Part shown: positions 46,001-61,620 of the stretch, piece by piece
How positions within the stretch are numbered: position 1 is the first letter of the stretch
Layout: each line of letters begins with the position of its first letter
Origin: Megalonaias nervosa
Lineage: Eukaryota; Mollusca; Bivalvia; Unionida; Unionidae
NCBI GenBank assembly: GCA_016617855.1
Contig: JAECUM010004444.1
Span: forward strand, 1 to 64,000
Length of the DNA: 64,000 nt
Reading direction: 5' to 3'
Notes under the pieces: generated by a model
The model's input: the letters and a program-made list of their open reading frames with translations, nothing else
Told to the model about the DNA's origin: nothing
Database searches by the model: none
Position numbers and translations under genes: made by a program

Positions 46001-48238
46001 ATGATCTGAGTACTGTCTAATATATACATGATCTGAGTACTAATATGTACAATATGATCTGAGTACTGTCTAATATATACCACATGATCTGAGTACTGTC
46101 TAATATATACCACATGATCTGAGTATTGTCTAATATAAACATGATCTGAGTACTGTCTAATATATACAAAAACATGATCTGAGTACTGTCTAATATATAC
46201 AACATAATCTGAGTACTGTCTAATATATACAACATAATCTGAGTACTGTCTAATATATACAACATGATCTGAGTACTGGCTCCTATATACTACCATATTT
46301 ATCATATATATTGGGACACAATAAAATAATAATTTTTGTTCCTGTTCCAGAACTTATGGTGAAACTTCCTTTCACCTAGGTCATGTGTCCCAAGCCTTAA
46401 GAAACAAAATAAATTTGTGTTGAATTTGCAACCCCCCCAACCGCCAATGCACATTGCAATAACATAGATAAACGAAACTGCTTATTTGATAATAAAATGA
46501 AAGAAACTAACCAGGTATTGTTATCATATTTTCCTCTTTGTTCATTATGAGCAATTTATTAAAGAAACAAATGTATCCACAAACTCCGTATATTTTACGT
46601 ATGCATCCCTACTGCAGTGTATTGCATATGTAAGATAACACATGACACATTGTTGATTGATGTGAATATAGAGAAATGAATCGTGTTTAGCTATACTCCA
46701 ATGTTTGATATATTATCAGACTGAAAACTGATCTGACAAAATCGCAAGAGAGAGAAATCAATCAAGATCAACCGATTGCTCGAGGCACCTGCCATTCACG
46801 CATGACTTGGTGCAAGATGCAAAATAACCAGGACTGTATTATATCCAGGTTAATTATGACAGTATTTTGCACAAAAAAAAATTATTATTTGAAGATACAT
46901 GTACTGCGAGTGCAAATGACAATCATTTTACTAGCATGGGTTACAACAAAGTATTATTAGTGCAAGTTATTGATGTGTATACTATTTACCCTGCAGACAT
47001 CAATGTTTGTTTGTATCAGTTATGATTACCAATGGGAAACAAATAGAAGCCCGGGTGGTGAATAAACACAACTGGCAGAGATGCCATAAACTTATTGTTT
47101 GAACTTACTAGCAGATATCAAATACAAGGGTTATTTTATTACAAAGCAAGCTGACCTCAGAAGACAACTTTGGATTCTTTTAAGTGAGCCGATTTTTGTT
47201 TTAAATACCAAATTGGCTGACAGAGGGAAGCAAACATTTGTTCCTTTTTACTGGTATTCACAGGAAATTTTGAAAATAAATTGAAACAATGAAACAGTTT
47301 TTAAAGTGACACAATCTAGTGCTCTGGACACGGACGTTGCTGGCCCAGGGTTTCCTAGAAGATTTGGAGGAGAAAATAAAAATAAAATGAACTGATGAAT
47401 TTTGAAGGCCAGAAGAGAGATGATTTTGTTGACAATATGATCATTAACATGGAGAAATTCCAGTGCACTTTGCTGTCATTCCTGGATGGACTGTCGATAA
47501 GAAGAGGGTTAATAATGTGAGAATTTGCATGACTAGTGCAGAACAAAATCTCCTTGCAATTTCCACTTCAGAAGATGTGTTGTCTCCAATGAGAATTTTC
47601 ATGGCATGGGGAAGCTAAAAAAATATTCATGCACCGAAAGTATGGATCGTACATGTGCAGGAGAAGGTTGGGTTGATGAGAAGATGCTGAAGGGGATTAA
47701 GCTGTTTTATCTCAAGTACACACTTTAATATTTTTCTTATAATAAATAAAATTTAAGTTTGAATTCATTTTCTGACCTGTAATTTTCAAATGATTTAAAA
47801 GGTGTCCCACAACATATGACTCAAAAAAACAACATGTTCCAGAACTTACAGTGCACAAAAAACTACTTTAAAAATTAATTTATTGTGTACTATCAAATAC
47901 AGTGTCCCAATATATATGGTAAATAGGGTACATGTCTGTGTACCTTCTTCTGTATACCACATAATCTGAGTATTGTCTTCTATATCCAATGTGATTTGAG
48001 TACTGTATCCTATATACTGACATTAATTGTGGAGTTTTTATTTTGTAACTTTCCTATGATGTTACCTAAACTGCCTCAGATTTAATACATCATGTTATTC
48101 ATTAACTTCTTTCAAAATGTAAGCAACACTCTATGAATCTGCTTGTATATTTGTTGAATAATAGTTTCATGGTAATTTCAATGATGCTCATACAATTTTA
48201 TTACATGAACACACATGCTCTTTCTATCTATCTATCTA

Positions 48239-48304
<66 letters not shown>

Positions 48305-50274
48305 TGTGAACCTTCTGTATGGGAGGGATTTCCTCTCACATGAGGGTTGTGTCCCTCCCATCACTCACTAAAATATCCCATTGTGCAAAATTATTATTGA
48401 AAATTTATCTTTCTCCTTTTTTTCACACCTTACTGACAGCGTAGTATATTTACAGTAATACTGCCTGTGATCACATGATTGTGATCTGACTAAAGCAGGG
48501 CAAGACAGTTTAGTTGCTAATTTCAAACAGCATAAAACAATTTTCATCCCTTCATAGCATTACCAGGATCAGTTGGCTTCAGTGTTTTAAGTTTATCGAC
48601 ATGGATTATTCTGTGTGTGATCAGAAGTAATACCTTAAGGATTAAAGAGAGTAATTGATTATGTTTGGATTACTAAAGAGCTGAATCTGCATAAAACGGT
48701 CAGTTTGGCTTCTATGTTTAAAGTTTGTCGACATGTCAAAGTGTGCTTCAGTGCTAAAACACCAAAATCTTAGTAACCAAAATTTAAGCCAAAATTAAGT
48801 GATAGATAGAAATGGGAATTTCATTGTTTGTAATCAAGTTCGAAGGACATGAATATGCATTCTGCCATTCCTGTAATGCTGATTTTAAAATCTGCTTCAT
48901 TAGTAAGAATGACCTTACATGTCATTCAGCATATTCAAGCATATTAAAAGCAACAACAAATATGACATCACTGTTTTCAGATTCTGCATCAAATATGGAT
49001 GATGTTATACATGCTGAGACTCAGCTTGCCAACTTTATAGCTGAACATAAAAAATTCTGTTTATGGTAGCAGATCAGTTATCAGATCTAGTTAGAATAAT
49101 CCCTGACTCAGAAATAGCACAAAAGTTTTCATGCACACAGAAGAGTTACTCACATTGTGACACATGCTTTGGATCCTGATAAGAAAAATTACCACAATGA
49201 AAAAGTTTTCCTTCTCATTGAAGGGCAGCTGCGTAAAAAATCCTGACCAAGTTTGACAAATCTCCCAATTTGTCATAAACTGGCTTATTTGTTCTGTCAC
49301 ATGTATATTGCTCCCCAAAAATTTGAACTTTGCAGGAGTTAAATTTTTGAATTATTGCTTGCCTGCTAAGTGAATTTTCATGAACCTTGAGTCTTTGCCT
49401 GCTAAGTGAATTTTCATGCACCTTGAGTTTGTAACACACACACACACACACACACATACACACATTTCCTGTGAATTGTATCTACCAATTATTTGTATTT
49501 AATATCTTGTTAGCATTTTCAAAGTTTGCAATCCTATGCCATCTTTCACTTTATTCTTGTTTTTGGATATTTTATGTCAGATGGTTAAAATACTGATCAA
49601 ATGTTATTTAATACTTTAATAAATATTATATGTTTTCTAATTTTACATTACCATGGTATTTTGTATAACATATTCACACCAACCTCAAATATACGAGCAG
49701 GTTACAATTGAAAAACTGCAACTGCTTCTATGGTAGAAGTAATATTTTCATATATTTATTGAATGAAGTATTGGATAAAATTGACCTTGTCATGTCCAAT
49801 GAAGTATTGGATAAAATTGACCTTGTCATGTCCAATGAAGTATTGGATAAAATTGTCCTTGACATGTCCAATGACATATTGGATAAAATTGACCTTGACA
49901 TGTCCAATGAAGTATTGGATAAAATTGACCTTGACATGTCCAATGAAGTATTGGATAAAATTAACCTTGACATGTCCAATGAGGTATAAGTTGCTTCTGA
50001 TTGTACTACAGAACTGCAAATTTCTGAGTCATTTTTTTTCATAGGTCATGTGTGAATTTTTGGTAGAAATCCCATACATGGTGATGTAATTTATTGCAAT
50101 TTATGATATGCAAATTCTGTCAGAAAATTAGGATCAGTCAAAAAAATTCTGACCTAAAATTACTAAAATTTTAGGGCAGGTAAAAATAATTCTTTTGAGA
50201 AAATCTTAGGATTGCTGGAAAGTTTAGGGTGCCTCAAGATATATCCAGGAGTTTTCTTTAGTCATCCTCATTTA

Positions 50275-50335
<61 letters not shown>

Positions 50336-53300
50336 GTCCATGATGTCATTGTTAATTTGTTGATCTATTGAAATTAAATTGAATTTTTCCTTGAAATCAA
50401 TTGCTGTATTGTATTTTCTCGGGGTTAAAATAACAACAGTGTTGCTTATTTTCTTAGGAAGTGAAATTTAATATTGCTATTCTGTGCAAAACTGTCAGAT
50501 ATTGTGGGCTTTCTGTAAAACATTCCCCAAAATATTACTGAAAACAATGCAGCCAGAGCAGAATAGTTATACAGTTTTTTTCTGATAAATATAATTACTA
50601 ACATCAGTAATAATACATAACTCTGGGACTTTGTGTAATTTTATCTCACATGTTGTGAACTCTTAAGAAATAATGTGTATCATATGTTATTTCTTTTGAC
50701 AGGGCCAGTTAGTGTTGGAGATGGGTAATTATGAACTAGCATCCTTCTGTGTCAGGTGAGACACCACCAGCATTATAGTTAAAATATCTTTCTGTCATAT
50801 TGTTTGTGAATTTTTTTTATTTAATGCATGTTTCAGCTGAAAAATATCATTATAATGTTCTCTTCCTGAAAGTTTGAAATATGTAAAGGTTTATACACTC
50901 AAATCTGTGTATAAACTACTCAGGCTGGCAGTTAAAATATTCTAAACTTTTTTAGAACATTTATCTGCATATGTTCAAACATTTCTCTGTTTTCCCAATC
51001 TGGAATGTAACTCATGTTAATGCATCTGTTGGAACAAAAACTTGCAATGTCGGTGCATCTGAATGTGAAGCCATGTTGCATACTTAAACTGGCCTATTGT
51101 GACCTACTTTTCTTGGTTTGTGAAACAATTGTTTAGATACGATAGCTGAACTTTGAATTTCAATGCTTCTACAGTTATTGCTGTGAAAGTTGAAATGTGG
51201 GTTGTGTTTGGGTATGAAGGTGTATTGTGCACCCAGAATGAGTAACCATTACCTAATTTCCTGGGTTTATTCATGTTGCTGAAAAATAATTTTTGTGCCT
51301 GGCTTAGTTGTAATGGCAAAAATGTTTCCTTTTGTGCCACTTTAGACATGCATCAGAGCTACAGTCAGACTCATCCACGTTGGGACAGAGACCTACCCAG
51401 CAGGCTGTCGTGCAGTCCTTCCTGAAGAACTATGACAAGGTATTGCGTTCATTCTTTTTTATTAGGGGAGTTAATTTGTACTCTAAAAACAATACCATTC
51501 TTTTAACATGGTGCTATTAAGCAATGCTTAACAGATTGACCATGGTCATCTGATATTGATCAAACCCTTTATGTGGTTAGAAAAGACTGATGTTCATGGC
51601 ATTGTTTCATTTACCTATTAACCAATATTGTAGCTGCTTTGGAAGCATTGAACTATAGAATGTGAATGTCAGTTATGATAATTATGAGTGCAAATATCAC
51701 TTTTATTCATGTTTTCCAGTGCTGAATTTAGACATTCATTTGCTATTTATTCACTGCATCAGTTTTCAATTGGTGTCTTTTTATCTGCTGGCATCATTGG
51801 TAAGCAATGACATGAATGGTTATGTTTTGTAGTTAGCCAGTGTCAGGTATACTTACAAGTTTTATTACCATCTTAAAAGGCCTGATGTATAATTATTATA
51901 TTGTGTAATGGTATGGAAAAAAATAATACAAGGGGTAAAATTCACCCTTGCTAAATTTAGTTACCTTATATAATAGTAGAATTACTTCCTCTTGCCAAGA
52001 TCATTTCTTTTACAACTTTGACAATGCACTCTAATTCCATATCAGGTAAATTTACCTATGTCCATTTTCTATTATAAGGCATGATGCTTTCTGTATTTGC
52101 ACATATATAACTTGTGACCAAGTGCAAGCATTGTAGACCTAGATATGTTGCTGCACATTGTTGCTTGTAGATCAGAGTACATTACTCCCTCAATATAAGA
52201 TGCTATACTCTAAGGCAGGGGTCAGCAACCTATGGCACACATGCCACAAGGTGGCACGTCAAGATGTTTTGTGTAGCACACGAAGGGCAGCCAAAAATCT
52301 CAATTTTAACAGTGTTACTCTCTTAATGGTGGCACGTGCTCATTCATTTTGTAATTAATGTGGAAAAAAGTGGCATGCTATGTAAAATAGGTTGCTGACC
52401 CCTGCTGTAAGGTTCCCATGTATGGTGTTATAATTAGGGAGTACTGCATATGTTGTTCTGTTCACATATGATTGTAAGTGAATGGTGTCAACCCTGATCC
52501 ACTGGCATCTTATGCAGTGACATCTCAGAGTCAATGCCACCGGAAATTGAATGTTTAAAACACACTGGTAAATAAGATACTATACATAATGTAGGCTATT
52601 GAAGCCCTGGAGACAGCTACCAGATCCAAGCCGACAGCGGCCATGTTTATGTTGCTTGGCAAGACACAGATGAAAGCCAAAAATTTCAAGGATTCCATTA
52701 AGAGCTTTGAAAGGGCCCTGGATGAATATGTAAGTAATCTAAGAAATTAAATGAAATGGAAGTTTTAGAGGATTTTTTTTTCAATGAAAATTTATTGATT
52801 GGATTTAAGGCTTTACTAGTAAGATATCAGATGGAAGTTAATGACTATCTTATGTCATAATTTTATAATTATTATTTCTTATAAACATGAAATATTCAGT
52901 CTTGTCAAGAAAAGCTAAGTTTTGATTGAAAGTTTAACTAACATTAGTGTTTGTAAAACAAATAAAACAAACTCTTACATAATCAGCTTTTAAATAAAGC
53001 TAATTTTAAGTTATAAGAAACTATACTAGCATGTGTGGGTTTAGTTCAGCATATGGTTCTATTTTCAAAGTAAAATTAGTGGAGAAAAAGAACACAAGTA
53101 ACTTGTTAAAAGGAGAAAATGTACAAAGGAACCACTATTTGTGTACTATCTAATTTGAATGTTTTTTCATGCTGTTGCATATTTTTTCATGAATTTGCAG
53201 ATAGATTGATGGAAAATGGATTAATTGATAGAACTGTGAGTTTGAGACAAACTTAAAATATGCAGTGTAATGGAAATGCTATATTTTGAAATTGATGCTT

Positions 53301-56300
53301 ATGAAAAAATGCACAGAAAGATAGAAATACATTGTGAACATGGATTAATGCTCTAGTGGGATCATTGTTAGTATCAAAGTTGGAAAGCAAATGATCCAAA
53401 CAAAGTGCTAGTCAGTGCTGTCAATTTTATATGTATATATTGTGTATTCTAGATTGCCGAGGTGCACGCTATGAATGCAGCAATGAAAGTCAGTGTAACA
53501 TTTACTGGCCTCAAAAAGATAACAGGAACTGAGGTTTAGTGAAAATTAGATATTTATTCTTTGCAGAAACTTTTGGAATGGGTTTTTACTTTTCTTTTTT
53601 AATGAAGATTTAAAGCACACACATTTTGTTGTTGCATGCTTCAATACAGTGTCCCTCACTATAAAATCAATACAGTGTCCCTCACTATAAAATCAATACA
53701 GTGTCCCTCACTATAAAACAGTTTATAGGATAACTCTTAAAAGTGTACTAAGTTGTAAGTAGACCACCATTTAATGTAGTATATTACATGCAAGGCCATG
53801 TCTATAATTACATGCAAGGCCATGTCTATAATTACATGCAAGGCCTTGTCCATAATTACATGCAAGGCCATGTCTACAATTACATGCAAGACCATGTCTA
53901 TAATTACATGCAAGACCATGTCTATAATTACATGCAAGACCATGTCTGTAATTACATGCAAGGCCTTGTCCATAATTACATGAAAGACCATGTCCATAAT
54001 TACATGAAAGACCGTGTCCATAATTATATGAAAGACCATGTCCATAAATATGTGCAAGACCGTGTCCATAATTACATGAAAGACCATGTCCATAATTATG
54101 TGCAAGACCGTGTCCATAATTACGTGAAAGATCATGTCCATAATTACATGCAAGACCATGCCCATAATTACATGAAAGAGAGTGTCCATAATTACATGCA
54201 AGACATGTCCATAATTACATGCAAGACCATGTCCATAATTATGTGCAAGACCATGTCTGTAATTACATGCAAGGCTGTGTCCATAATTACTGCAAGGCTA
54301 TGTCTGTGATGCATCATTTTCTGCATAAAATCATAAAACTAATTTGGGAATCCAAAAAACCAGATTTTAATTTGATCTAATGAGTTGGGAACAAAACTGT
54401 AGTGTAATGCATACCAATATATGATATGAATGGCTGTTTTATATTGAGGGGTTTAATACTGAAGGGACACAGTACTATGTAAAACCTGTGTCTGAAGCTA
54501 ACTAATGGTAGCTAAGTATGCCAATATTTAAGGACTTTTAATAATTGATCTCCCAGTGGAATGATATTTTATATAATTTGTCTTATAACCAGCTGATTGT
54601 CTATGATTAACAGAAATTAATTAAAATCAATTAATTCAGTTTAAATTTCATTGAGATTAATGTGCATTTGAATTTTACATTGATTCTTTTGAAAGTATTG
54701 ATTTCATCCATTTACAAAAAGTCATCGATTCCTGAATGAATACTTTAGCTAGAATGTACATATATTCTTGCTTATAACTTGGGTCCAAACTTGCAAACTA
54801 CACAGACCCAGATCTGCAATTGTATAATGCACCAGCAGATCTGGCTATAATGAGTTTTTTTGGAGTAATCATTATAACAAACAACAAAGAACCTGATCAG
54901 CCTGTGCTTTATGCAACTGCAGATCTGTATCTATGATGTTTGCAATTGGACTTAACTTACAAGTGAGTTTATAGGGATTAGAATGCTGACTTACACACAG
55001 GTTAATTAAAATTACAGATTTTTGCAATTCAGGTGCATGGACATGTGTTTGGGTGTTGGGATATATATTGCATCAGTAATTCAGGCACATGGACATGTGT
55101 TTGGGTGTTGGGATTTATGTTGCATCAGCAATTCAGGTGCATGGACATGTGTTTAGGTGTTGGGATATATATTGCATCAGTAATTCAGGTGCATGGACAT
55201 GTTTTTAGGCATTGGGATTTATGTTGTATCAATTCAGGTGCATGGACATGTGTTTAGGTGTTTGATTTATGTTGCATCAGCAATTCAGGCACATGGACAT
55301 GTTTATAGGTGTTGGGATTTATGCTGCATTAGCAATTCAGGTGCATGGACATGTGTTTAGATGTTGGGATTTATACTGCATCAGCAATTCAGGTGCGTGA
55401 ACATGTGTTTAGATGTTGGGAATTACGCTGCATCAGCATTATTGTTCTTCAGTTTGTATTCCTTATGCAACATTGAGAAAGTGATTTTCTGATTATGTGT
55501 CATTTACCATTAACTTAAATGGAACTTGTTACAAAAGATAATAATTATCGAAATGGAAAAAATATTTATTGTAAAATTCTCAATATTGACGGAATTGAAA
55601 ATAACCAATTTATGTCACAAACAGATGTTAACTGCAGTACAGCTTATATTAACAATTGTTTTCAGTAATATTATCATTCCTTAACATATTCATCGAATTC
55701 ATATTTTCAGTTTTTTCATGACTTGTAAAATTCTTGTTCTTTGAGTTGGATTAAGAATATGGTATATACTCACTTATAAGTCGAGTCCAACTGCAAACTG
55801 CACAAACCAGATCTACCATCGCATAATGCACTGGCAACTCTGAATCTGTGCAGATTGTTAGGAGTAATCAGTAGAATGAACAAGATGAACTCATGATTTG
55901 CAGGCACATTATGTGATGACAGATCAGGGTCTGTTTTGTTTGCAGTTTGACTCAGCTTATGATTTAGTGTATATGGTATGTCACTTTAATTAGACAAAAT
56001 AATCTAGTCCCATTAACTCCATGCAGACCATTCCATTTACAAACATCTATTAAATCAACTGAAGAGAAATTACTCTGAATGACCTTTAGATAGTATGCTT
56101 GTATAATGGGATGGGAAGATTAGTCATTGCATAATGGCATGGTAAATTTGTCATTGTGTAATGATTTAGTTCTGCCATGCTACAGTGGGCTGGAAGATCA
56201 ACCTTAATATAATAGGTCTGGAAGATTTCCCTTTGCCAGTAGATTTGCTATTGTATAATGGGCTAGATCTGTCATTGTCTGATGGGCTAGATCTGTCATT

Positions 56301-59300
56301 GTATAATGGGCTAGAGCTGTCATTATATAATGGGCTAAATCTGTCATATAATGGGCTAAATCTGTCATTGTATAATGGGCTAGAGCTGTCATTATATAAT
56401 GGGCTAAATCTGTCATATAATGGGCTAAATCTGTCATTGTATAATGGACTAGAGCTGTCATTGTATAATGGGCCAATATAATGATCTTGTAGATCTGTGC
56501 TGATTTAATGGGCTAGAAGATCAACCTTAATATAATTGGCAAGGAAGATCTCCCATTGTGTAATGACCAGTAGATTTGCCATTGTATAATGGGCCAGTAG
56601 ATCTGTCATTATTTAATGGGCTGGTAGATCTGCCATTGCAAAATGGGCCAGAAGATCAGCAGTTGTATAATGGGCCAGGAAGATCTGCCATTGTATCATG
56701 ATTTAGTAGATCTTTGGTATAACAGGCCAGGAAGATCTGTCATTCTTTATTGGACTGGTAGATCTGTTGTATAATGGGCCAGTAGATCTGTCATTGTATA
56801 ATGGACTCGTAGGTCTGCTGATGTATAATGGGCCATTAGATCTGTCACTGAAAAATCTGCTGGTAGATTTGCTGTTGTACAATAGGGCAGTAGATCTGTC
56901 ATTGTATAATGGGCTTGTAGGTCTGCCGATGTATTATGGGCCATTAGGTCTGTCACTGTATAATGGGCTGGTAGATCTGCTATTGTGGTATGGGCCAGTA
57001 GATTTGTGATTACATAATGGGCTGGTAGATCTGCTATTGTATGATGGTCCAGAAGATCTTTTATTGTACAATTAGTCAGGAAGATTTGCCATGGTTTAAT
57101 GGGCCAGAAGATCTTTTTTTTGTATAATTGACCAGTAGGTCTGCCATTGTATAATGGGCCCATATCTATGCCATAGCATAAGCCAAAATGTGCTGTTGTG
57201 TAATTGGGTTGCAGATCTGCTGTTGTCTCATGGGCCTGTAAATCTGCCATTGTATAATGGGCTGTTAGATCTACCATAGCATAATAGGCCAAAATGTGCT
57301 GTTGTAATGTTGGCTAGCAAATCTGCTATTGTCTAATGGGCCTGTAAATCTGCCATTGTATAATGGGCTGGATGATCTGACATTTTTAATGTGCTGGCAG
57401 ATCACTCTCGATGCTGTTTGTCCTATTTATGATTTCAAGTGAAAATGTTGACCATGATGTGGAGGTGCATTATGCGATGGTAGATATTAGTACATGCTGC
57501 TTACTGTTGACTGTGTTATACGTAAGTAAACTTGATTCTTTATGTCTAAGTTCTCCTCTTAGAGAAATTTAATAAGGTTAACTTTGTGGCAAGTAAATAT
57601 TTGTTTTCATTATTCTCTCTACTGGCCATAGACCAGAATAGATTATGGGATGGCCTGTTGTCTGACCATCTAGCTTTTAGCACAGATTTGTTATTGTTAC
57701 TCGTCCTTTGCTGCTTGGGTGATTGCCATGGAACCTTATACAGATTCCTACCAAGGTAGGACTAGTTTGACCAATGTGGGCTTTCACTTACAGACTTCTT
57801 ATGATGTGTACAGGGTCCTAAATGAAAATGTTGCTGATATGATGTGCAGTATGGCATGCAGCCATCTTGAAACTCTTGTTATTGCTATTTATCCTGGTAC
57901 CTTTTGGTCATCCAGAGTGGCCACAACAGTGGCCATCTTGAAACTCTTGTTATTGCTATTTATCCTGGTACCTTTTGGTCATCCAGAGTGGCCACAACAG
58001 TGGCCATCTTGAAACTCTTGTTATTGCTATTTATCCTGGTACCTTTTGGTCATCCAGAGTGGCCACAACAGTGGCCATCGTGAAACTCTTGTTATTGCTA
58101 TTTATCCTGGTACCTTTTGGTCATCCAGAGTGGCCACAACAGTGGCCATCTTGAAACTCTTGTTATTGCTATTTATCCTGGTACCTTTTGGTCATCCAGA
58201 GTGGCCACAACAGTGGCCATCTTGAAACTCTTGTTATTGCTACTCCTGAATGGATGCTCACATGAACATGGAGTTTGCACTGAAAGACTTGTTATGATGT
58301 CTAGTTGGTCCTAAACGAAATTGGTGCTGATCTGATGTCCAGTATGGTCACTATGGCAGCCTTCTTGAAAATCTTGTTACCACTACTGCAAGACTACTTT
58401 TGATGTCTAGTTGGTTGGTCTCAAACAAAAATGGTGTTTATGCGACATGCAGTATTACCACAACAGCTTGCAAATCTTGTTGTCATAACTTCTTCTCAAC
58501 TGAAAGTCGTACGAGCATTGGGTTTTCACTGGGAGACTTCTTAATGTGTCCAATTGGTCTTACATGAAAATTGTACTGAGTGACAAATCTTGAAAATCTT
58601 GCTCTCGCTAGTTCTTCTTGATGGAAAGTCATACTGACATTGGGTTTCACCAGAATACTTAATATGAAACATTTTGGACTGAAATGGAAATGAATCGGAT
58701 TTGACATGCAGGGGTCACGGGTTTATTACATGCCCTGGTCATCCCAAGTCAATTGCCTTAGTGCGTCCTTGGGAAAGGCACTTTGCTCCCATTTCCTTAG
58801 CATGATATAGCCAATAATAAGCTAACAATGCTGGTACAACAAATAAAACAACTCCAAAAGGTTGAATATGGCCACCACAACAGCAAATTTGAAAATTTTA
58901 TTGCTGAAGAATATCAGCAGTTAAAAAAAAGAAATGGTCTTGAATTCCTGAAAATTCTTTTTGGGTGGTAGAGCATCAATTCCTTTGTGTGATAAAGTGG
59001 TGTGAGAGGGTAATATAATTCCTTTATCGAAGTGGTATGGGAGGTAAGGATGCATTTTATTTAATAATACTGGTATAAGAGGGGAAAATAAAATTCCATT
59101 AAGGAAGTGGTATGAGAGAGGAAAATAAACTACTGTTAACAAAATGGTATGAGAGTACAGAATGATATTCCTTTAAGGAAATGGTATGAGAGTACAGAAT
59201 GACATTCCTTTAAGGAAATGGTATGAGAGTACAGAATGACATTCCTTTAAGGAAATGGTATGAGAGTACAGAATGACATTCCTTTAAGGAAATGATATGA

Positions 59301-60018
59301 GAGTACAGAATGACATTTCTTTAAGGAAATGGTATGAGAGTACAGAATGACATTCCTTTAAGGAAATGGTATGAGAGTACAGAATGATATTCCTTTAAGG
59401 AAATGATATGAGAGTACAGAATGACATTCCTTTAAGGAAATGGTATGAGAGTACAGAATGACATTCCTTTAAGGAAACGGTATGAGAGTACAGAATGATA
59501 TTCCTTTAAGGAAATGGTATCAGAGCCAAAAAAAAAGGAATTTTATTTTTCCCTCTTGTACCACCTCTGTCATGGTCATGGACAAACCCTTGGTTTACAT
59601 TTGGATTAGTGATATGGACAAACCCTTGGTTTACATATGGATTAGTGATATGCATATATGTGTTTCAACTTGAAAGATTATGTTTATTAATTTTGCCATG
59701 ATTTGGTTTTTATCAGTAATTTACAGGAACTGGTGGATGGAACACACTTGCAGCCATTTGGAATGCACCATAAGTAGTGTGTGGGATAGTTGGTTTTCTG
59801 TGCACTGTGTTATGGTGTGGGTATGAAATATCATTGAAGTTATGTTCATTTTTTTTTGTATTGATTTCCAGAAGCCATACAAACCTCGTGATTCATGGCC
59901 TATAGAAGCAGCTGACTCTCACTACCTCATTGGAATTTGTCACCAAGAACTGGGATCTCATGTAGATGCTCTGGAAGCCTTCAGTAATGCCATTAAGCTG
60001 AACCCAAATTATGCTGAG
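17..60018 (+). CDS. TTC6: TTC6-like TPR protein gene, internal part (19 exons, both ends outside window)
   Basis: Nineteen exons (listed separately) join in one frame to 684 codons with no stop; every intron is GT-AG. Numbering residues from the first codon in the window: 1-190 is non-TPR, with a Lys/Arg-rich stretch (22-60), a Trp-rich segment (EWVRDIWNTWFDEVF, about 103-117) and an acidic, Glu/Lys-rich tail (120-145). From about 190 to 684 there are some 14 TPR units of about 34 residues, recognised by the W/Y-x2-RG/A-x3-Y and A-x3-F/Y-x2-A-I-x-L-x-P patterns. TPR arrays are helical scaffolds for protein-protein binding; no catalytic domain is visible. The long C-terminal TPR run after a low-complexity N-terminus fits metazoan TTC6, but other long TPR proteins cannot be excluded without a search. 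Promoter, start codon, stop codon and poly(A) site lie outside the window. Confidence 0.8.
390..985. repeat. Degenerate minisatellite, unit about 60 bases
   Basis: About nine diverged copies of a unit containing 'gggcttcccacttagcagta' followed by cagtaaaactc-type sequence and a ttgtaaag joint. Lies in the first intron. Open frames here are absent or short. Confidence 0.85.
1213..1640. repeat. Tandem repeat, unit about 115 bases, four copies
   Basis: Each copy starts with 'gtaacttgtccagtgacaac' and includes cctaaactcatcaagattg. The overlapping open frames at 1058-1445 run across repeat copies and are not credible genes. Confidence 0.8.
1638..2485. repeat. 27-base minisatellite (about 30 copies)
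   Basis: Unit is a variant of 'gggtaatataagaattatga' plus ttcataa. Because 27 is divisible by three, long repetitive open frames exist on both strands (1629-1997 and 1635-2036); they mirror the repeat and are not genes. Confidence 0.92.
3150..3830. repeat. 34-base minisatellite (about 20 copies)
   Basis: Unit contains 'catacatttgacagaccaat' followed by tcaacccatattgc. Later copies (3690-3830) drift to atactttggatagacc variants. Confidence 0.9.
3918..4195. repeat. 48-base tandem repeat (about 6 copies)
   Basis: Unit 'ttggtcctggtgtccatagt' followed by ggcacagtgttatatcctgttttataat. 48 is a multiple of three, explaining the 99-codon hydrophobic open frame at 3922-4221. Abuts the RNase H relic. 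Confidence 0.88.
4210..4900 (-). mobile_element. RNase H domain relic of an I/Jockey-type non-LTR retrotransposon
   Basis: Minus-strand reading gives, in order, YSDSRKDGNKVG, VETKAILKPLNYADTSKTEN, FIFFSDSLSTMKALHNLKF and, after stops and a frame shift, HYWLPSHVDIKGNVRVDIAA. These match the four blocks of retroelement RNase H: YTDGSK, AELKAI, SDS and LPSHVGIKGNE-x-AD. All four catalytic acidic positions (D, E, D, D) are still visible although the frame is broken, so this is a dead 3' fragment. No reverse transcriptase was recognised next to it. Confidence 0.8.
4901..6877. other. Intron 1, 3' part: no gene recognised
   Basis: AT-rich sequence with open frames of 60-90 codons that lack recognisable domains. 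A GC-richer island at 6173-6447 (G- and C-rich runs, overlapping open frames on both strands) stands out in composition, but I found no family match and no clear element ends. Confidence 0.5.
6878..7024 (+). CDS. TTC6: TTC6-like exon 2 (residues 22-71), basic region
   Basis: Acceptor cttactcatttag, donor CAAT|gtgaga. Phase 2 in and out, joining exons 1 and 3 without a stop. Strongly basic: KKKKQRSPVSMARLDEVERF, then RRRHSMIRIVK. The Lys/Arg clusters could serve nuclear import or nucleic-acid/tubulin contact, but nothing shows which. No recognised domain. Confidence 0.85.
7748..8635. repeat. 44-base satellite, about 20 nearly identical copies
   Basis: Unit 'agatgaggttatcaggggtc' then ctgtaatctcattatagtgcaata. 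Copies differ at only a few positions (g/a in 'caggggtc', agtgcag versus agcgcaa), except one variant near 8430 and decayed last copies. The homogeneity implies recent amplification. Confidence 0.95.
8930..9006. repeat. (AAT)n-(ATT)n compound microsatellite
   Basis: A run of aat triplets passes directly into att triplets, making a nearly self-complementary tract that ends 34 bases before exon 3. Confidence 0.95.
9040..9117 (+). CDS. TTC6: TTC6-like exon 3 (residues 71-97)
   Basis: Acceptor ctctctattccag, donor TTAAA|gtaagt. Reads QVREGRKHSLPDILNFQEYG then DKKGLK; phase 2 on both sides. Directly preceded by an AT-rich trinucleotide microsatellite. No domain recognised, but the conserved-looking SLPDILNF segment is a good probe for orthologue searches. 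Confidence 0.85.
9173..9403. mobile_element. MITE family copy 1 (imperfect terminal inverted repeats)
   Basis: Left end taccatatatactcactta, right end reverse-complement gtactgtactctaaactaat; the arms continue with aagtc...ccaa..tgcaaac in both directions. Interior has bipartite cagatc/gatctg motifs. Related copies lie at 54756-54975 and 55758-55979. Superfamily not assigned. Confidence 0.65.
10140..10445. repeat. 15/18-base minisatellite
   Basis: Units such as 'gtgagtactgtaagtgct'. Produces Ser/Thr/Val-rich frames on the plus strand and a Leu/Thr/Val frame on the minus strand; both reflect the repeat. Confidence 0.92.
11098..11241 (+). CDS. TTC6: TTC6-like exon 4 (residues 97-145), Trp-rich then acidic
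   Basis: Acceptor gggtgtatttcag, donor AAACG|gtaaga. Contains PDYNVREWVRDIWNTWFDEV with three Trp residues, likely an amphipathic helix, followed by a Ser/Asp/Glu-rich linker and a Lys/Glu tail ending EEEKTK. Phase 2 on both sides. Confidence 0.88.
11242..13150. other. Intron 4, 5' part: no gene recognised
   Basis: Between exon 4 and the 39-base array. 11480-11640 and 12650-12800 are A-rich with recurring aaatgcaaaatga-like words. The 124-codon open frame at 12005-12379 matches nothing I recognise and overlaps another frame on the same strand. An acceptor-like site at 13000 is discussed under rejected items. Confidence 0.5.
13155..13805. repeat. 39-base minisatellite (about 16 copies)
   Basis: Unit 'acataattatgtgctttgtg' followed by agttcctaatgttagggt. 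Ends 105 bases before exon 5. Confidence 0.9.
13911..13998 (+). CDS. TTC6: TTC6-like exon 5 (residues 145-174)
   Basis: Acceptor tgtgctcccaacag, donor TTGCAG|gtaaga. Reads KISISSSIPESLEYIEPLVE then NDENLDVLQ. Switches the frame from phase 2 to phase 0. A Ser-rich linker between the acidic part and the TPR array. Confidence 0.86.
14704..14865 (+). mobile_element. tRNA-derived SINE, copy A
   Basis: The 5' part 'tggctcagaagttagtgtgc' resembles a tRNA A box and D arm, followed by a decayed B box region (gatcagcctgggttgg). The middle has tgggcaaggcacttatc, a motif common in invertebrate SINE bodies. The tail cataaaacaccaaaccaa is shared with copy B at 21031-21205. Confidence 0.65.
15210..15255. 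repeat. (TA)n(TG)n microsatellite
   Basis: Alternating ta then tg dinucleotides; gives artefactual frames with Tyr-Ile and Cys-Val runs. Confidence 0.95.
15890..16675. repeat. About 37-base minisatellite (about 20 copies)
   Basis: Unit 'gtcactgtcataatgctgtg' followed by tgatgtcacatagcagt. Copies vary by small deletions. Confidence 0.9.
16880..17270. repeat. About 50-60-base tandem repeat (about 7 copies)
   Basis: Unit 'cacactcctgtaattacact' followed by atgtataaa(tc)taga(c)ttatcaaatg. AT-rich, diverged. Confidence 0.85.
17346..17752. repeat. 56-base tandem repeat, seven copies, each with an acceptor-like site
   Basis: Unit 'ttattacattttgatttcca' followed by gattgtcatagyacatgtgttagcattgtaacatg. 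Every copy carries 'tttgatttccag', a good match to a 3' splice site. The sequence after it reads ten codons and then TAA. Confidence 0.93.
18085..18265. mobile_element. Decayed inverted-repeat element (unclassified)
   Basis: Contains the motif pair 'gtgaccacgtagacaggtgg' and ctaatacaggtgattct...agcaggtttga. Arms at both ends are weakly inverted (cctgtttaagcag versus cctgcttcgag). Similar wording recurs at 38776-38975. Low certainty. Confidence 0.35.
18777..18869 (+). CDS. TTC6: TTC6-like exon 6 (residues 175-205), start of TPR array
   Basis: Acceptor aaaatatcatag, donor AGAAAG|gtctgt. Reads ILHEELEKLTEEMKDKPRAF then DYCRRGALHRK; the latter is helix A of TPR 1 (RRGALH matches the RG-x-x-Y/H core). 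The preceding charged stretch is likely a capping helix. Phase 0 on both sides, 31 codons. Confidence 0.88.
19471..19508 (+). CDS. TTC6: TTC6-like exon 7 (residues 206-218), short TPR exon
   Basis: A 38-base exon reading LGYIKKAEKDLNK, the A/B helix turn of TPR 1. Acceptor tttatattttcag, donor AACAA|gtaaat. Phase 0 in, phase 2 out. Too short for ORF-based detection, but it completes TPR 1 exactly between exons 6 and 8. Confidence 0.86.
19678..19731. repeat. Perfect 18-base inverted repeat (hairpin)
   Basis: Arm CCCCTCTTATAAGACCAC at 19678-19695 and its exact complement at 19714-19731 with an 18-base loop. Probably the core of a decayed MITE; the outer limits are not clear. Confidence 0.85.
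20699..20725 (+). other. G-quadruplex candidate in intron 7
   Basis: Five G runs of 3-5 separated by single T bases (GGGGGTGGGGTGGGGG, then TGGGTGGGG) on the sense strand. Very short loops give a highly stable parallel G4 in principle. Confidence 0.8.
21031..21205 (+). mobile_element. tRNA-derived SINE, copy B
   Basis: 5' end 'catggtaactgagtggttag' resembles a tRNA A box; 3' tail has ctacatgtgttgttctgttg then taaaacaccaaaccaa, shared with copy A (14704-14865). Confidence 0.6.
21764..21910 (+). CDS. TTC6: TTC6-like exon 8 (residues 218-267), TPR 1 end to TPR 3 start
   Basis: Acceptor tttttttttacattgcag, donor TCTAT|gtcagt (a less common donor). Reads AIELEP (end of TPR 1), LDAYWHRHLLFVLQDKKAQA (TPR 2 helix A) and LEDLTYILKHSKQ (helix B), then SGAYRSM opening TPR 3. 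Phase 2 on both sides. Confidence 0.9.
21911..23441. other. Intron 8, 5' part: no gene recognised
   Basis: AT-rich intron sequence. A stretch near 22305-22360 (tgggtttaatgccatctttc...) resembles a mollusc-type SINE tail but is too decayed to delimit. The 111-codon minus-strand frame at 21998-22333 shows no domain. Confidence 0.45.
23450..23624. mobile_element. hAT-type MITE with perfect 8-base target duplication
   Basis: Flanked by ATCTAAAC at 23442-23449 and 23625-23632. Left end CAGGGGATTGAAATTC, right end reverse-complement AGGTGTCTAAAAC, interior GC-rich with gagggccaca and ggccgcacc words typical of hAT MITEs. 175 bases, non-coding. Confidence 0.85.
24088..24208 (+). CDS. TTC6: TTC6-like exon 9 (residues 267-307), TPR 3 and TPR 4 start
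   Basis: Acceptor ccccctcctccacag, donor GAGAAG|gtatgg. Reads AEIYRRQGDITMAIVNYTQA then IKLNP, a textbook TPR, followed by DHEAYFRRAEMYEK (helix A of TPR 4). Phase 2 in, phase 0 out. Confidence 0.92.
24692..24877. mobile_element. PIF/Harbinger-like MITE
   Basis: Terminal inverted repeats begin GGGCTGTTCCA and stay similar for about 40 bases; flanked by the 3-base duplication TCA (24689-24691 and 24878-24880). The flanking sequence has a diverged duplicate near 25165-25215 that lacks the element. 186 bases, non-coding. Confidence 0.75.
24881..27689. other. Intron 9, middle: no gene recognised
   Basis: Diverged copy of flank sequence at about 25100-25220, an A-rich stretch at 26345-26395, otherwise unique-looking AT-rich sequence. 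No credible coding frame. Confidence 0.5.
27690..28705 (+). mobile_element. DIRS-like retroelement, tyrosine recombinase relic
   Basis: Plus-strand translation, with stops and frame changes, gives the order typical of DIRS/Ngaro-type tyrosine recombinases: CYDAKWKIFYNWYS (from about 27865), VSTIRGYRAALSSTPKFSMN, YVLWSLSKPSHRLWSKVFFE (from 28138), PGFRPRI, and finally KVHDVRIIAASWAFLNHSS with the H-x-x-R catalytic box (HDVR) at 28590-28601. The other catalytic positions are uncertain. At least two stops and several frame shifts make it a dead copy. The reverse transcriptase part was not found. Confidence 0.8.
28706..29617. other. Intron 9, 3' end: short duplication only
   Basis: Two 66-base copies around 28700-28815 (gtgttaggtcatctg...tatcagtca.atcaccag). 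The rest is unremarkable AT-rich sequence before exon 10. Confidence 0.6.
29618..29724 (+). CDS. TTC6: TTC6-like exon 10 (residues 308-343), TPR 4 end and TPR 5 start
   Basis: Acceptor ttccttta cctacag, donor GATTGG|gtaaga. Reads RGDMLLALEDYGKATKIMP (TPR 4 helix B) and TDAILKHGMYYFEIG (TPR 5 helix A). Phase 0 in, phase 2 out. Confidence 0.9.
29805..31490. mobile_element. Head / tandem-core / tail composite element, copy A
   Basis: Head: cctctcctggtcatagacct, ...ccgactattagcataagttt, ...cttctcctgcttggaggatt. Core: about ten diverged ~150-base units (catatcaacatgg.gttttcac, ctaaaagacttcttatgatg, tctagttggtcctaaatg, gaaaatggtg, tatggccaccatg, gccatcttgaaaatcttg). Tail: atcatagatggtttcagcac and attcctgaaaattatttttg. 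The same three parts recur at 34607-36700 and 57609-58990. No coding capacity. Architecture recalls bivalve 'pearl'/Helitron-like non-autonomous elements. Confidence 0.75.
31955..32455. repeat. Two small tandem arrays
   Basis: 31960-32045 has three copies of a ~36-base unit (gcctttgctagaacatatgg). 32160-32455 has about eight copies of a ~38-base unit (tgatacaaatccttatgtgt then aatgccaaaaatgcactc). Confidence 0.85.
32921..33118 (+). CDS. TTC6: TTC6-like exon 11 (residues 343-409), TPR 5-7
   Basis: The longest exon here (198 bases). Acceptor tttctttattatag, donor AGAAA|gtatgc. Reads WNNAINDFSDLLRVDP (TPR 5 helix B), AEAHVLRGRAYANMGQWSLA plus VGDLSAAIHLNP (all of TPR 6) and HWKAFYHRACILRK (TPR 7 helix A). 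Phase 2 on both sides. Confidence 0.92.
33290..34050. repeat. 34-base minisatellite (about 20 copies)
   Basis: Unit 'gtagttaatattgtggtaat' then tactgggttcaaat. Fills most of the intron between exons 11 and 12. Confidence 0.92.
34480..34593 (+). CDS. TTC6: TTC6-like exon 12 (residues 409-447), TPR 7-8
   Basis: Acceptor tttttttatgtag, donor GGGGAG|gtaaga. Reads AYPKRALHDYSVSLLICD (TPR 7 helix B) and ENVMSYLHRGILYNSMG (TPR 8 helix A). The usual Pro after helix B is replaced (LICDTEEN). Phase 2 on both sides. Confidence 0.9.
34607..36700. mobile_element. Head / tandem-core / tail composite element, copy B
   Basis: Begins 13 bases after exon 12. Head tatcaccactggtcatagatc is duplicated within the element (a second copy at about 34680). 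Core of ~150-base units, with a local four-copy ~72-base expansion at 35590-35870 (atgaatgatcatatcagcat, ggctgccacagtggccatct). Tail tattgctgaagaatatcata, gatggtttcaacacttgg, gtcttcaattccaggaaa. Homologous to copies A and C. Confidence 0.75.
37005..37665. repeat. 34/37-base minisatellite (about 18 copies)
   Basis: Unit 'agggctactgactgttagaa' then caaacagcttcctgtcc; shorter units lack gtt. Fairly homogeneous, suggesting recent expansion. Confidence 0.94.
37999..38057. repeat. (GTT)n(ATT)n microsatellite
   Basis: gtt triplets followed by about 15 att triplets. Confidence 0.95.
38058..38775. other. Intron 12: open frame without recognisable product
   Basis: A 104-codon minus-strand frame (38403-38717) with several Cys residues was read and does not resemble a family I know; no splice or promoter context supports it. 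Confidence 0.4.
38776..38975. mobile_element. Decayed inverted-repeat element (unclassified), related to 18085-18265
   Basis: Contains 'ccagtgaccgcttaaggtag', tgctggaggcaggtgacc and a right end aggtgaccgttaggacaggt then ttgaatgtac. Shares the gtgaccgctta / acaggtttga wording with the 18.1-kb element. Lies just before exon 13. Confidence 0.4.
38998..39111 (+). CDS. TTC6: TTC6-like exon 13 (residues 447-485), TPR 8-9
   Basis: Acceptor ttttccttccag, donor CACAG|gtagat. Reads AEDAVPDFESVLKLNKDV (TPR 8 helix B) and ACAHVNLGLILMHHYENYH (TPR 9 helix A). Same length (114 bases) and phase as exon 12, consistent with duplication of a TPR exon. Confidence 0.9.
39140..39605. repeat. Two ~170-base units plus a 52-base triplication
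   Basis: ctgagatatcttcatgggac and gtgagatattttcatgaaac both precede ttggtat. At 39470-39600 'gagtgggatatttagagtta' tctctccaattctttttatt occurs three times. Confidence 0.85.
39914..40007 (+). CDS. TTC6: TTC6-like exon 14 (residues 485-516), TPR 9-10
   Basis: Reads AIKKFTAAIKVDP (TPR 9 helix B) and TYVRAYVCRAEAYHKIHE (TPR 10 helix A). Donor ATGAG|gtagag. The acceptor (gttatgaaataag) has a poor pyrimidine tract and Ala-type aAG context, yet it is the only one giving a continuous TPR. Phase 2 in, phase 0 out. Confidence 0.87.
40050..40158. repeat. (ATT)n microsatellite and degenerate extension
   Basis: About 15 att triplets starting 43 bases after exon 14, then an imperfect t-rich triplet zone (tgttgctgttgttatt). 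Translation through it gives the Ile and Tyr/Cys runs seen in frame. Confidence 0.95.
40159..41764. other. Intron 14, 5' part: no gene recognised
   Basis: AT-rich; a 40-base direct duplication at about 41278-41350 (aagtgtttacttgtcatcag tgcatagga). No coding signal. Confidence 0.5.
41764..42055. repeat. 18/19-base minisatellite (about 16 copies)
   Basis: Unit 'tagggaaaaaggctactca'. Length variation is confined to the A run (4 or 5 A), giving 18- and 19-base units. Confidence 0.95.
42720..42925. repeat. 27-base minisatellite (about 8 copies)
   Basis: Unit 'ttttggtgggttgatatatt' then ccacagc; multiple of three, so four overlapping frames of 60-80 codons arise on both strands. Confidence 0.92.
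42930..43650. other. Intron 14, middle: no gene recognised
   Basis: Somewhat higher GC than its surroundings. I translated both strands and found no family match; the minus strand has a ~70-codon open stretch (about 43350-43590) without an ATG start or known motif. Confidence 0.4.
43655..43905. repeat. Degenerate ~24-base repeats
   Basis: Recurring 'gagtgacttgattgctgccc' cagtgacttg and ctctgtttaagctgtc words. The minus-strand frame here (43622-43846) includes duplicated SLNRA words produced by these repeats. Confidence 0.75.
43940..44730. repeat. 58- and ~110-base tandem repeat
   Basis: Units with 'gtacagtggtcacacttggg' and tcc..tctaggtggaagttgtc; three 59-base copies at 44260-44440 are most alike. 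A 137-codon frame (44278-44691) is a repeat artefact. Confidence 0.88.
45641..45715 (+). CDS. TTC6: TTC6-like exon 15 (residues 517-541), TPR 10-11
   Basis: Acceptor ttttatttattccag, donor TACAGG|gtttgt. Reads LSQALKDFTRAIHLRPDV (TPR 10 helix B) then HHYYMYR (start of TPR 11). 75 bases, phase 0 on both sides. Reading on past the donor soon leaves the TPR pattern, which supports the splice site. Confidence 0.9.
45885..46290. repeat. 30-base minisatellite, left part (about 13 copies)
   Basis: Unit 'tactgtctaatatataccac' atgatctgag. The array is interrupted by the Tigger element and resumes at 47931-48020. Multiple of three, so long repetitive minus-strand frames exist. Confidence 0.93.
46293..47928 (+). 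mobile_element. pogo/Tigger-like DNA transposon, dead copy, inserted in a minisatellite
   Basis: 27-base terminal inverted repeats with two mismatches: both contain CATATATATTGGGACAC, the outer parts being CCATATTTAT and CCCTATTTAC. TA flanks both ends (46291-46292, 47929-47930), as expected for Tc1/mariner-type elements. Inside, plus-strand fragments match pogo transposase: AQGFLEDLEEKIKIK (about 47342), WTVDKKRVNNVRICMTSAEQ (from about 47486) and GWVDEKMLKGIKL (from about 47668), corresponding to the TVD..G...V and GWMDE blocks of the family. The NMDE block reads NMEK, and stops and frame shifts abound. 1636 bases. Confidence 0.88.
47931..48020. repeat. 30-base minisatellite, right part (3 copies)
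   Basis: Same unit as 45885-46290 (tgtataccacataatctgag), separated by the Tigger insertion. Confidence 0.9.
48215..48305. repeat. (CTAT)n(TA)n(CA)n compound microsatellite
   Basis: Five ctat units, about 25 ta units, then ca units. Confidence 0.97.
48812..49190 (+). pseudogene. hAT/ZBED-like zinc-finger fragment, broken
   Basis: Open frame 48812-49069 reads EYAFCHSCNADFKICFISKN, DLTCHSAYSSILKAT, a Ser/Thr linker, then AETQLANFIAEHKKFCLW before a stop. After a +1 shift the next frame continues VADQLSDLVRIIPDSEIAQK then FSCTQKS. This order (C-x2-C...H finger, AE-x-x-x-ANF-x-AEHN, VADHLSDLV, FPDSEIAKKFSC) is that of hAT-derived transposase-like proteins common in marine invertebrates. Only the N-terminal ~120 residues remain; the catalytic domain is absent. 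Confidence 0.75.
49355..49470. repeat. Short direct duplication and (CA)n tract
   Basis: tttgcctgctaagtgaattt tcatg.accttgagt occurs twice, followed by about 12 ca units at 49435-49460. Confidence 0.85.
49765..49985. repeat. 36-base tandem repeat, six copies
   Basis: Unit 'gaagtattggataaaattga' ccttgacatgtccaat. 36 is a multiple of three, giving about 90-codon frames in four readings; none is a credible gene. Confidence 0.95.
50276..50336. repeat. (ATT)n microsatellite, about 20 units
   Basis: Uninterrupted att triplets in the intron before exon 16. Confidence 0.98.
50703..50755 (+). CDS. TTC6: TTC6-like exon 16 (residues 542-559), TPR 11
   Basis: A 53-base exon. Acceptor atttcttttgacag, donor GTCAG|gtgaga. 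Reads GQLVLEMGNYELASFCVR, continuing the TPR 11 started by HHYYMYR in exon 15. Phase 0 in, phase 2 out. Confidence 0.88.
51346..51439 (+). CDS. TTC6: TTC6-like exon 17 (residues 559-590), degenerate TPR
   Basis: Acceptor tttgtgccactttag, donor GACAAG|gtattg. Reads HASELQSDSSTLGQRPTQQA then VVQSFLKNYDK. A Ser/Gln-rich insertion interrupts the TPR spacing after TPR 11; QQAVVQSFLKNYDK resembles a shortened helix A leading into exon 18. Phase 2 in, phase 0 out. Confidence 0.87.
52216..52404. mobile_element. hAT-type MITE, 189 bases
   Basis: Perfect 18-base terminal inverted repeats CAGGGGTCAGCAACCTAT; flanked by CTCTAAGG (52208-52215) and CTGTAAGG (52405-52412), an 8-base duplication with one mismatch. 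Interior is non-coding with paired ggcac..tgcc words. Confidence 0.92.
52595..52729 (+). CDS. TTC6: TTC6-like exon 18 (residues 591-635), TPR 12-13
   Basis: Acceptor catacataatgtag, donor GAATAT|gtaagt. Reads AIEALETATRSKPTAAMFML then LGKTQMKAKNFKDSIKSFER and ALDEY: helix B of the degenerate repeat, then a full TPR. 45 codons, phase 0 on both sides. Confidence 0.91.
52730..53452. other. Intron 18, 5' part: nothing recognised
   Basis: AT-rich, no repeat array, no open frame of note. Confidence 0.6.
53453..53488 (+). CDS. Possible optional 12-codon exon between exons 18 and 19
   Basis: Acceptor atattgtgtattctag in phase 0, then IAEVHAMNAAMK and a gtcagt donor of the same type as exon 8 uses. 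Including it keeps the frame into exon 19. If not spliced there, the frame runs 16 more codons to a TAG at 53537-53539, so it could also be an alternative last exon. Skipping it also gives a proper reading frame, and I cannot decide from sequence alone. Confidence 0.4.
53640..53718. repeat. 26-base triplication
   Basis: 'atacagtgtccctcactata' aaatca three times. Confidence 0.93.
53780..54305. repeat. 24-base minisatellite, about 22 copies
   Basis: Unit 'ataattacatgcaagaccat' gtcc. As 24 is a multiple of three, frames of 154 (minus) and 173 (plus) codons encode eight-residue repeats; they lack any context of a real gene. Confidence 0.95.
54756..54975. mobile_element. MITE family copy 2
   Basis: Left end gtacatatattcttgcttat then aacttgggtccaaacttgca; right end reverse-complement cctataaactcacttgtaag ttaagtccaattgcaaac. 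Interior holds AGATCTGCAATTGTATAATG followed by caccagc and a second agatctg, i.e. a 27-base spacing between AGATCTG words. Confidence 0.75.
55027..55440. repeat. 52-base tandem repeat, eight copies
   Basis: Unit 'attcaggtgcatggacatgt' gtttaggtgttgggatttatgttgcatcagca. Confidence 0.93.
55758..55979. mobile_element. MITE family copy 3
   Basis: Left end ggtatatactcacttataag tcgagtccaactgcaaac; right end reverse-complement accatatacactaaatcata agctgagtcaaactgcaaac. Interior has agatctaccatcgcataatg cactggca and a right-half block gcacattatgtgatgacaga. Confidence 0.78.
56100..57415. repeat. 27-base satellite derived from the MITE interior (about 45 diverged copies)
   Basis: Unit approximates 'agatctgccattgtataatg' ggccagt. 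The same 27 bases, with few differences, occur once inside MITE copy 2 (54756-54975), bounded there by two AGATCTG words. Right of the array, 57465-57535 (gtgcattatgcgatggtaga ... cgtaagtaaac) resembles the right half of the MITE. Long minus-strand frames (56747-57292) reflect the repeat. Confidence 0.85.
57609..58990. mobile_element. Head / tandem-core / tail composite element, copy C
   Basis: Head ctctctactggccatagacc, ...agcttttagcacagatttgt, ...gctgcttgggtgattgccat. Core of ~150-base units containing a five-copy 72-base expansion (57870-58230; catcttgaaactcttgttat ... agagtggccacaacagtggc). A SINE-like piece (58705-58800, ccttgggaaaggcactttgc) lies in the core. Tail tattgctgaagaatatcagc, aattcctgaaaattcttttt, gagcatcaattccttt. 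Confidence 0.75.
59150..59530. repeat. 37-base minisatellite, ten copies
   Basis: Unit 'atgacattcctttaaggaaa' tggtatgagagtacaga. Each unit has the palindrome ttcctttaaggaa. Homogeneous. A 35-base duplication (gacaaacccttggtttacat) follows at 59578-59650. Confidence 0.95.
59872..60018 (+). CDS. TTC6: TTC6-like exon 19, last in window (residues 636-684), TPR 14
   Basis: Acceptor tttgtattgatttccag, donor GCTGAG|gtaaaa. Reads KPYKPRDSWPIEA (linker), ADSHYLIGICHQELGSHVDA and LEAFSNAIKLNPNYAE, a near-consensus TPR. 49 codons, phase 0 on both sides. It ends exactly where another TPR helix A should begin, so the gene continues beyond 64000; no further exon was seen in 60019-64000. Confidence 0.92.
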
Positions 60019-60164
60019 GTAAAACATATGGGCTCATGGTTAGCTTACACAAAGTTCTGGTTTAATGCAATCAGCAATAAGGTGGAAGACTTCCCAAATG
60101 TAGTGATTTAAATTACTAAATTCAGCCGAAAAAGGATTCCAGTCCATCTTATTTTAAACTACAG

Positions 60165-60561
60165 CTTAAAATGGTACTCATTCAGATGTTAATTAAAAGC
60201 TGAAGATGGTACTCAGTCAGATGTTAGCATACAGTAGAAGGTGGTACTCAGATGTTAAAGTACAATTGAAGGGGATCCTCAGTCAGATGTTAAAATACAA
60301 TTGAAGGGGGTACTCAGTCAGATGTTAAATTACAACTGAATGGGGTGCTCAGTCTGATGTTAACAAGCAGTTGAAGGTGGTACTCAGATGTTAAAATACA
60401 GCTGAAGGAGGTACGTAGATGTTACAGTACATTTGATGGTGGTACTCAGTCACATGTTACATTACAACTCTAGAGGATAATCATTCAGATATTAAAATGC
60501 AACTGAAGTTGGTACTCATTCGTATATTAAGATACAGCTGAAGTTGGTACTCATTCATGTA
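60165..60561. repeat. ~35-base minisatellite, left part
   Basis: Unit 'aaaatacagctgaagttggt' actcattcatatatt and diverged forms (cagtcagatgtta). Interrupted by the piggyBac-like element and resumes at 61177. Confidence 0.92.
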
Positions 60562-61176: not shown

Positions 61177-61620
61177 TTAAAATACAGCTGAAGTTGGTAC
61201 TCATTCATGTATTAAAATACAGCTGAAGTTGGTACTCATTCATATATTAAAATACAGCTGAAGTTGGTACTCATTCATATATTAAAATACAGCTGAAGTT
61301 GGTACTCATTCATATATTAAAATACAGCTGAAGTTGGTACTAATTCATGTATTAAAATACAGCTGAAGTTGGTACTCATTCATATATTAAAATACAGCTG
61401 AAGTTGGTACTCATTCATATATTAAAATACAGCTGAAGTTGGTACTCATTCATATATTACAATACAGCTGAAGGTGGTACTCAGATGTTATAGTACTGAA
61501 GGTGATACTCATTCTGATGTTAAAGTACGGTTGAAGATAGTAGATGTTAAAATACAGATGAAGTTAGTACTCAATTAGATGTTTCAATACACCTTAAGGT
61601 GGTACTCATTTGTAAGCTGT
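61177..61620. repeat. ~35-base minisatellite, right part (about 12 copies)
   Basis: Same unit as 60165-60561. Copies next to the insertion (61177-61470) are nearly identical; later ones are diverged. Confidence 0.93.

Follow-up and report, generated by a model that had tools for sequence, protein, structure and literature searches.

A fold-back MITE family in the window

The stretch of DNA that we analysed, 64 kb long and hereafter called the window, carries numerous minisatellites, as detected by TRF, and few long reading frames. Four of its open reading frames were compared with Pfam, and one gave a match, a short tetratricopeptide stretch at 32880-33215. These features together give the window a eukaryotic look. 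Dispersed over the window is a family of fold-back MITEs, represented by three full copies, two partial pieces and a part that adjoins a 27-bp tandem array. The full copies lie at 9172-9392 (copy 1), 54758-54977 (copy 2) and 55759-55979 (copy 3), are approximately 220 bp in size and share 67.6-69.6% pairwise identity. All three carry long inverted arms, as seen when each was aligned to its own inverted sequence and compared with 200 shuffles (z 9.6, 31.6 and 31.6, respectively), and copy 3 as single-stranded DNA is predicted to take up a stable hairpin fold (z -4.1) that was equalled by 0 of 200 shuffles. At about 220 bp, the copies are too short to code for a transposase, and no such gene is present in them. 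Their ends may resemble those of Tc1/mariner-type MITEs. When the ends were inspected by eye for target-site duplications, ATATGGTAT was seen to flank copy 3 on both sides, and no similar pair was seen in copies 1 and 2. However, the reverse complement of ATATGGTAT stands just before copy 1 on its left, and hence ATATGGTAT could be part of the element itself.

The original prediction had named three MITE copies, near 9.2, 54.8 and 55.8 kb. All of them were found, but the family has further pieces in the window, which were detected with an nhmmer profile trained on the three copies in both orientations (the copies themselves are also found by it). A partial arm at 4252-4325 is recognized both by the profile (over 4252-4322, E 1.2e-8) and by alignment. 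An old copy occupies 52100-52536; its left half is at 52100-52178 (E 1.1e-4), and its right half may be at 52490-52536, where the profile match is weak (E 0.18 and 0.35). This copy apparently was split by a nested element of approximately 190 bp, which reads CAGGGGTCAGCAACC...GGTTGCTGACCCCTG within 52100-52540, is flanked by CTCTAAGG and CTGTAAGG, and has what we presume to be a hAT-like look. No strand is assigned to any of these copies and pieces.

The arm of the MITE, whose consensus from ten arms is AGATCTGCCATTGCATAATGCACCAGC, contains a repeated short word. In the consensus of the whole element, CAGATCTG is found at positions 53 and 80, i.e., 27 bp apart, and a third time in the right arm, at position 164. 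In copy 2, as had been predicted, two AGATCTG words at 54810 and 54837 bound a segment of 27 bases (54810-54836). This pair had been taken as a feature of copy 2, and both words are indeed exact only in the left arm of that copy; the pair as such, however, belongs to the consensus of the family, and decayed forms of it are present in the other arms.

A 27-bp tandem array with a unit resembling the MITE arm

The array lies on the forward strand at 56088-57398, as delimited by wraparound segmentation and TRF, and its consensus is AGATCTGCCATTGTATAATGGGCCAGT. Wraparound alignment to this consensus divides it into 52 unit slots over approximately 1.31 kb, a number that counts partial and poor units too, as compared to the predicted 45 or so repeats over 1.3 kb. 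Its period matches the spacing of the two words, as had also been proposed, and does so for the 27 bp of the MITE consensus. The units have a mean pairwise identity of 0.71, computed over the 49 slots in which 20 or more bases were aligned, and identity is highest between units four slots apart (0.753 versus 0.707 overall), which agrees with a period of 106 bp that TRF reports for the array in addition to longer periods of 69 and 93 bp. Unit variants of 24 bp and 21 bp occur in the block 56241-56450. Thus the array is diverged, and its growth seems to have taken place in local blocks.

The consensus of the array and that of the MITE arm agree in 23 of 27 bases and differ at the remaining 4 positions. 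To place this agreement against the rest of the window, a 34-base query, consisting of the array unit and the next seven bases (AGATCTG), was slid over it on both strands. Outside the array, 13 matches of at least 22 of 34 bases were obtained at nine places, the number of places being smaller because the near-palindromic unit scores on both strands at some of them. Eight of these nine places are in parts of the MITE, among them 52494, in the weak right half of the 52-kb copy, and 57454, in the arm that adjoins the array. When the window without the array was shuffled with dinucleotides preserved, the best scores ranged from 19 to 22, and 22 was reached by 5 of 20 shuffles, such that the four matches of exactly 22, including the one outside the MITE at 45065, are at chance level. 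The other nine matches, with 23 to 30 identical bases at seven places, exceed every shuffle, and all of them fall into parts of the MITE (with the place at 52494 being weakly supported). The best of them, 30 of 34, is in copy 2. Local alignment of the array to the copies gave a high value with copy 2 (z 14.6), modest ones with copy 3 (z 3.5 and 3.2) and no similarity to copy 1 (z 0.6 and -0.3), an outcome that speaks against the origin of the array preferred below. In the scan, the anticipated likeness between unit and MITE interior goes beyond chance, and homology of the array unit to the interior of the MITE arm is supported by the sequence comparison. In viral and genome contig collections, which may leave out the window's own genome, the 27-bp unit had no match, and the MITE arm had none in the viral collection, to which the same reservation applies.

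The two sides of the array

The last array unit, at 57373-57398 on the forward strand, is followed directly and in register by MITE sequence, which comprises the centre and the right arm (57399-57528, forward strand). This part was recognized by nhmmer: the right flank, counted from 57374 to 57528, matches model positions 56-214 with an E-value of 3.5e-10 and 34.7 bits. When one copy at a time was left out of the model, the flank still scored 38.4, 22.1 and 22.0 bits without copies 1, 2 and 3, respectively, as compared to 6.0 bits for the best of 20 shuffled windows. The sequence to the right of the array therefore does resemble the right half of the MITE, as the original prediction had it, and the match to positions 56-214 means that the last unit occupies the site of the left-arm segment, with the MITE centre directly after it.

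The bases at the end of the unit differ between array and element. GGG at unit columns 20-22 was counted in 29 of the 52 slots of the array, but none of the 10 MITE arms has it, not even the one adjoining the array. At its end, the last unit reads TGTGCTGGC in place of the TGGGCCAGT of the array consensus, and this ending is a junction of the MITE type, GTGC being found in two of ten arms and GCAC being the commoner form. In register, the MITE-type ATGTGC occurs once in the array, namely in this last unit adjoining the MITE centre; it recurs at 57188 and 57294, but there in another phase. On four columns that are diagnostic between the consensus sequences, the last unit shows no MITE states and two array states, because its last four bases were unaligned in that run and because GTGC is the minority form among the arms. 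Taken together, the junction states mildly favour growth from the MITE into the array.

The order of events could also have been the reverse. An older tandem repeat may have existed, of which the ancestral fold-back element captured approximately 1.3 units, such that its arms would hold one unit and the start of the next, and the array would be the old tandem repeat or a captured one that expanded again. The MITE consensus indeed contains one full unit and the beginning of another, and the ends of the array show no gradient (see below). Nevertheless, we hold this order to be distinctly unlikely: the array meets the MITE centre in register, the GGG junction that prevails in the array is absent from all ten arms, and, in this window, wherever the unit is matched above chance outside the array, the match is in a part of the MITE.

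To the left of the array, at 55980-56087 (no strand assigned), a MITE left arm was not detectable by local alignment, end-to-end alignment or the profile model. In end-to-end alignment, 91 of 300 shuffles matched the outer arm as well as this flank did, and in local alignment 52 of 300 did so. In a like-for-like test, the outer arm on the right of the array was itself marginal (26 and 33 of 300 shuffles), which implies that an eroded left arm would escape detection. The proposal that the array lies inside a further MITE copy is thus supported in part, by the homology of the unit, the in-register junction on the right and the period, but a left arm was undetected.

Units near the ends of the array do not have significantly more MITE-like states than others, whether position is counted from the right end (Spearman p 0.21), from the nearest end (p 0.95) or in a third form of the test (p 0.19). 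These tests used the 44 of 52 slots that have at least 24 aligned bases, and the last unit was among the eight dropped. The absent gradient counts against a simple picture in which the edges of the array are conserved.

The undetected left arm would fit a further scenario, in which the array arose independently and was later joined by a MITE, either by insertion into its right end or by landing next to it, and in which the two are alike because they share the short palindromes AGATCT and CCATTGTATAATGG. An element with inverted ends inside a minisatellite in the same window (46291-47930, see below) also speaks for this scenario. However, the agreement in 23 of 27 bases, and of 30 of 34 at copy 2, is beyond chance, and an inserted MITE would carry its own left arm, whereas here the array replaces that arm in register. 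We therefore regard an independent origin as very improbable.

Other arrays and elements in the window

It had been suggested to ask whether arrays always have MITE arms on both sides, and this fails in the window. Inverted flanks at p<0.03, as judged against 1500 random placements, were found for two of 30 arrays, with approximately one expected by chance; the array studied here is not among the two (p 0.26). Since 28 of 30 arrays fail the test, a general rule that minisatellites sit in inverted arms was rejected. One of the two, 53783-54304, passes through a 17-base match only. The other, 59093-59525, is an array of 37 bp units between inverted 30-base arms (59071-59100 and 59534-59563) that match in 27 of 30 bases, and it is the only convincing case. 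By eye, its arms look like its own unit. This array at 59 kb may be a second, independent MITE-born minisatellite. Two more candidates, 44226-44445 (z 5.6) and 49762-49987 (z 4.0), stood out with flanks of 250 bases and were dropped, since with 150-base flanks and other gap costs p was 0.11 for each.

The opposite relation, an element within a minisatellite, is seen at 45879-48017, where a 30-bp minisatellite is interrupted by a 1.64-kb element with inverted ends of 29 bases (46291-47930) and resumes beyond it. Further repeats in the window include related dispersed stretches at 29761-31130, 34603-36011 and 57610-58242, which carry tandem units of 70-73 bp at 34603, 35572 and 57861 with 95-99% matches within an array. 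The neighbouring arrays 60154-60557 and 61177-61608 have a 35-bp unit in common; the first is diverged (73% matches) and the second is nearly homogeneous up to 61483 (97%). Finally, an inverted repeat at 24691-24878, with 35-base arms that are 80% complementary and 118 bp apart, is possibly another MITE family.

A model for the growth of the array

In our reading, the array probably grew within one copy of the non-autonomous fold-back MITE, by tandem growth primed by the repeated word. The starting point would be a MITE left arm in which two copies of CAGATCTG bound a single 27-bp segment. Misalignment of these words, by slippage or unequal exchange, would have produced the first duplication of the segment, and further exchange together with the duplication of blocks could then have raised the number of tandem copies to approximately 50. 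In an early unit, the MITE junction GCACCAGC or GTGCTGGC may have changed to GGGCCAGT, which subsequently spread. On one side, the array still continues in register into the right part of the host MITE, whose outer left arm would have been lost or eroded. Both the direction from MITE to array and the mechanism of copying are inferred, and slippage and unequal exchange are indistinguishable here because there is one haplotype only.

The fold-back shape of the element may have favoured a different mechanism for the same growth from the MITE, namely rolling-circle copying or a cycle of stem-loop excision. The stable fold of copy 3 is in line with this, as is the stem-loop mechanism that has been proposed, according to the account in PMC12628747, for Xstir of Xenopus. 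However, the duplications of 69, 93 and 106 bp and the identity peak at a distance of four units suggest stepwise local growth, and a stretch of 137 bases from the array folds barely better than chance (z -1.6, equalled by 13 of 200 shuffles). On the premise that the array grew from the MITE, we consider such a mechanism unlikely; as it concerns the manner of copying, it overlaps with the origin that we prefer.

Growth from the MITE is read from one locus. A broader and doubtful, though conceivable, extension is that the MITE family is a standing generator of 27-bp minisatellites by virtue of the CAGATCTG pair 27 bp apart in its arm consensus. If it were, one would expect many independent arrays of the same period and of various ages, each joined to remains of the MITE, and these would amount to a replicated natural experiment on the beginnings of satellites.

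Comparison with known systems

The route from a MITE to repetitive DNA is already known from other animals, as far as the accounts cited here describe it. In its anatomy, the nearest system is Tetris (with TIR-220) of Drosophila virilis, a non-autonomous foldback transposon whose arm repeats give rise to satellite-like arrays (PMC4079207); the likeness is one of description. Both cases involve a non-autonomous fold-back element in which a repeat of the inverted arm expands, or appears to have expanded, inside the element. In Tetris, by that account, the satellite-like arrays reach kilobase size within the element and may disrupt it. The Tetris unit, however, is described as approximately 220 bp long and already tandem in the arms, whereas the unit here has 27 bp and is single in the MITE arms of the window.

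Two MITEs of Xenopus are comparable in other respects, again by description. The first is miDNA4 of Xenopus tropicalis, a Tc1/mariner MITE with an internal satellite (PMC12628747, PMC9659126), for which a microhomology model has been given (PMC12628747). As here, its monomer is reported to be single or arrayed, flanking short direct repeats are proposed as the cause of expansion, and the arrays later lose the ends of the element (PMC12628747, PMC9659126), a likeness to the array described above; in contrast, the monomer here lies in an inverted arm. The second is Xstir (Hikosaka and Kawahara 2004), which is described as MITE, tandem array and composites of the two (PMC12628747, PMC9659126). 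The array here resembles it in being apparently derived from internal MITE sequence, but differs in that the stem-loop mechanism proposed for Xstir has no direct support at our locus. Several more MITE-born satellites are listed in the review PMC9659126. Viewed as an array born from a transposable element, the present one has a unit that is homologous to a segment of the element, and the element is present on its right side and undetected on its left.

In the light of Tetris, the Xenopus MITE satellites and the cases listed in PMC9659126, the array is a new and readily legible case of a kind already described, and by itself it adds one more locus to a list that, to judge from that source, is already in reviews. 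What can be read at this locus are MITE arms with a single unit and an array of approximately 50 units within a few kb of each other, as well as the words that may have acted as primers, the period and one of the junctions. Should the family have repeated the growth of arrays elsewhere, one could test directly if the period of new satellites is determined by short direct words.
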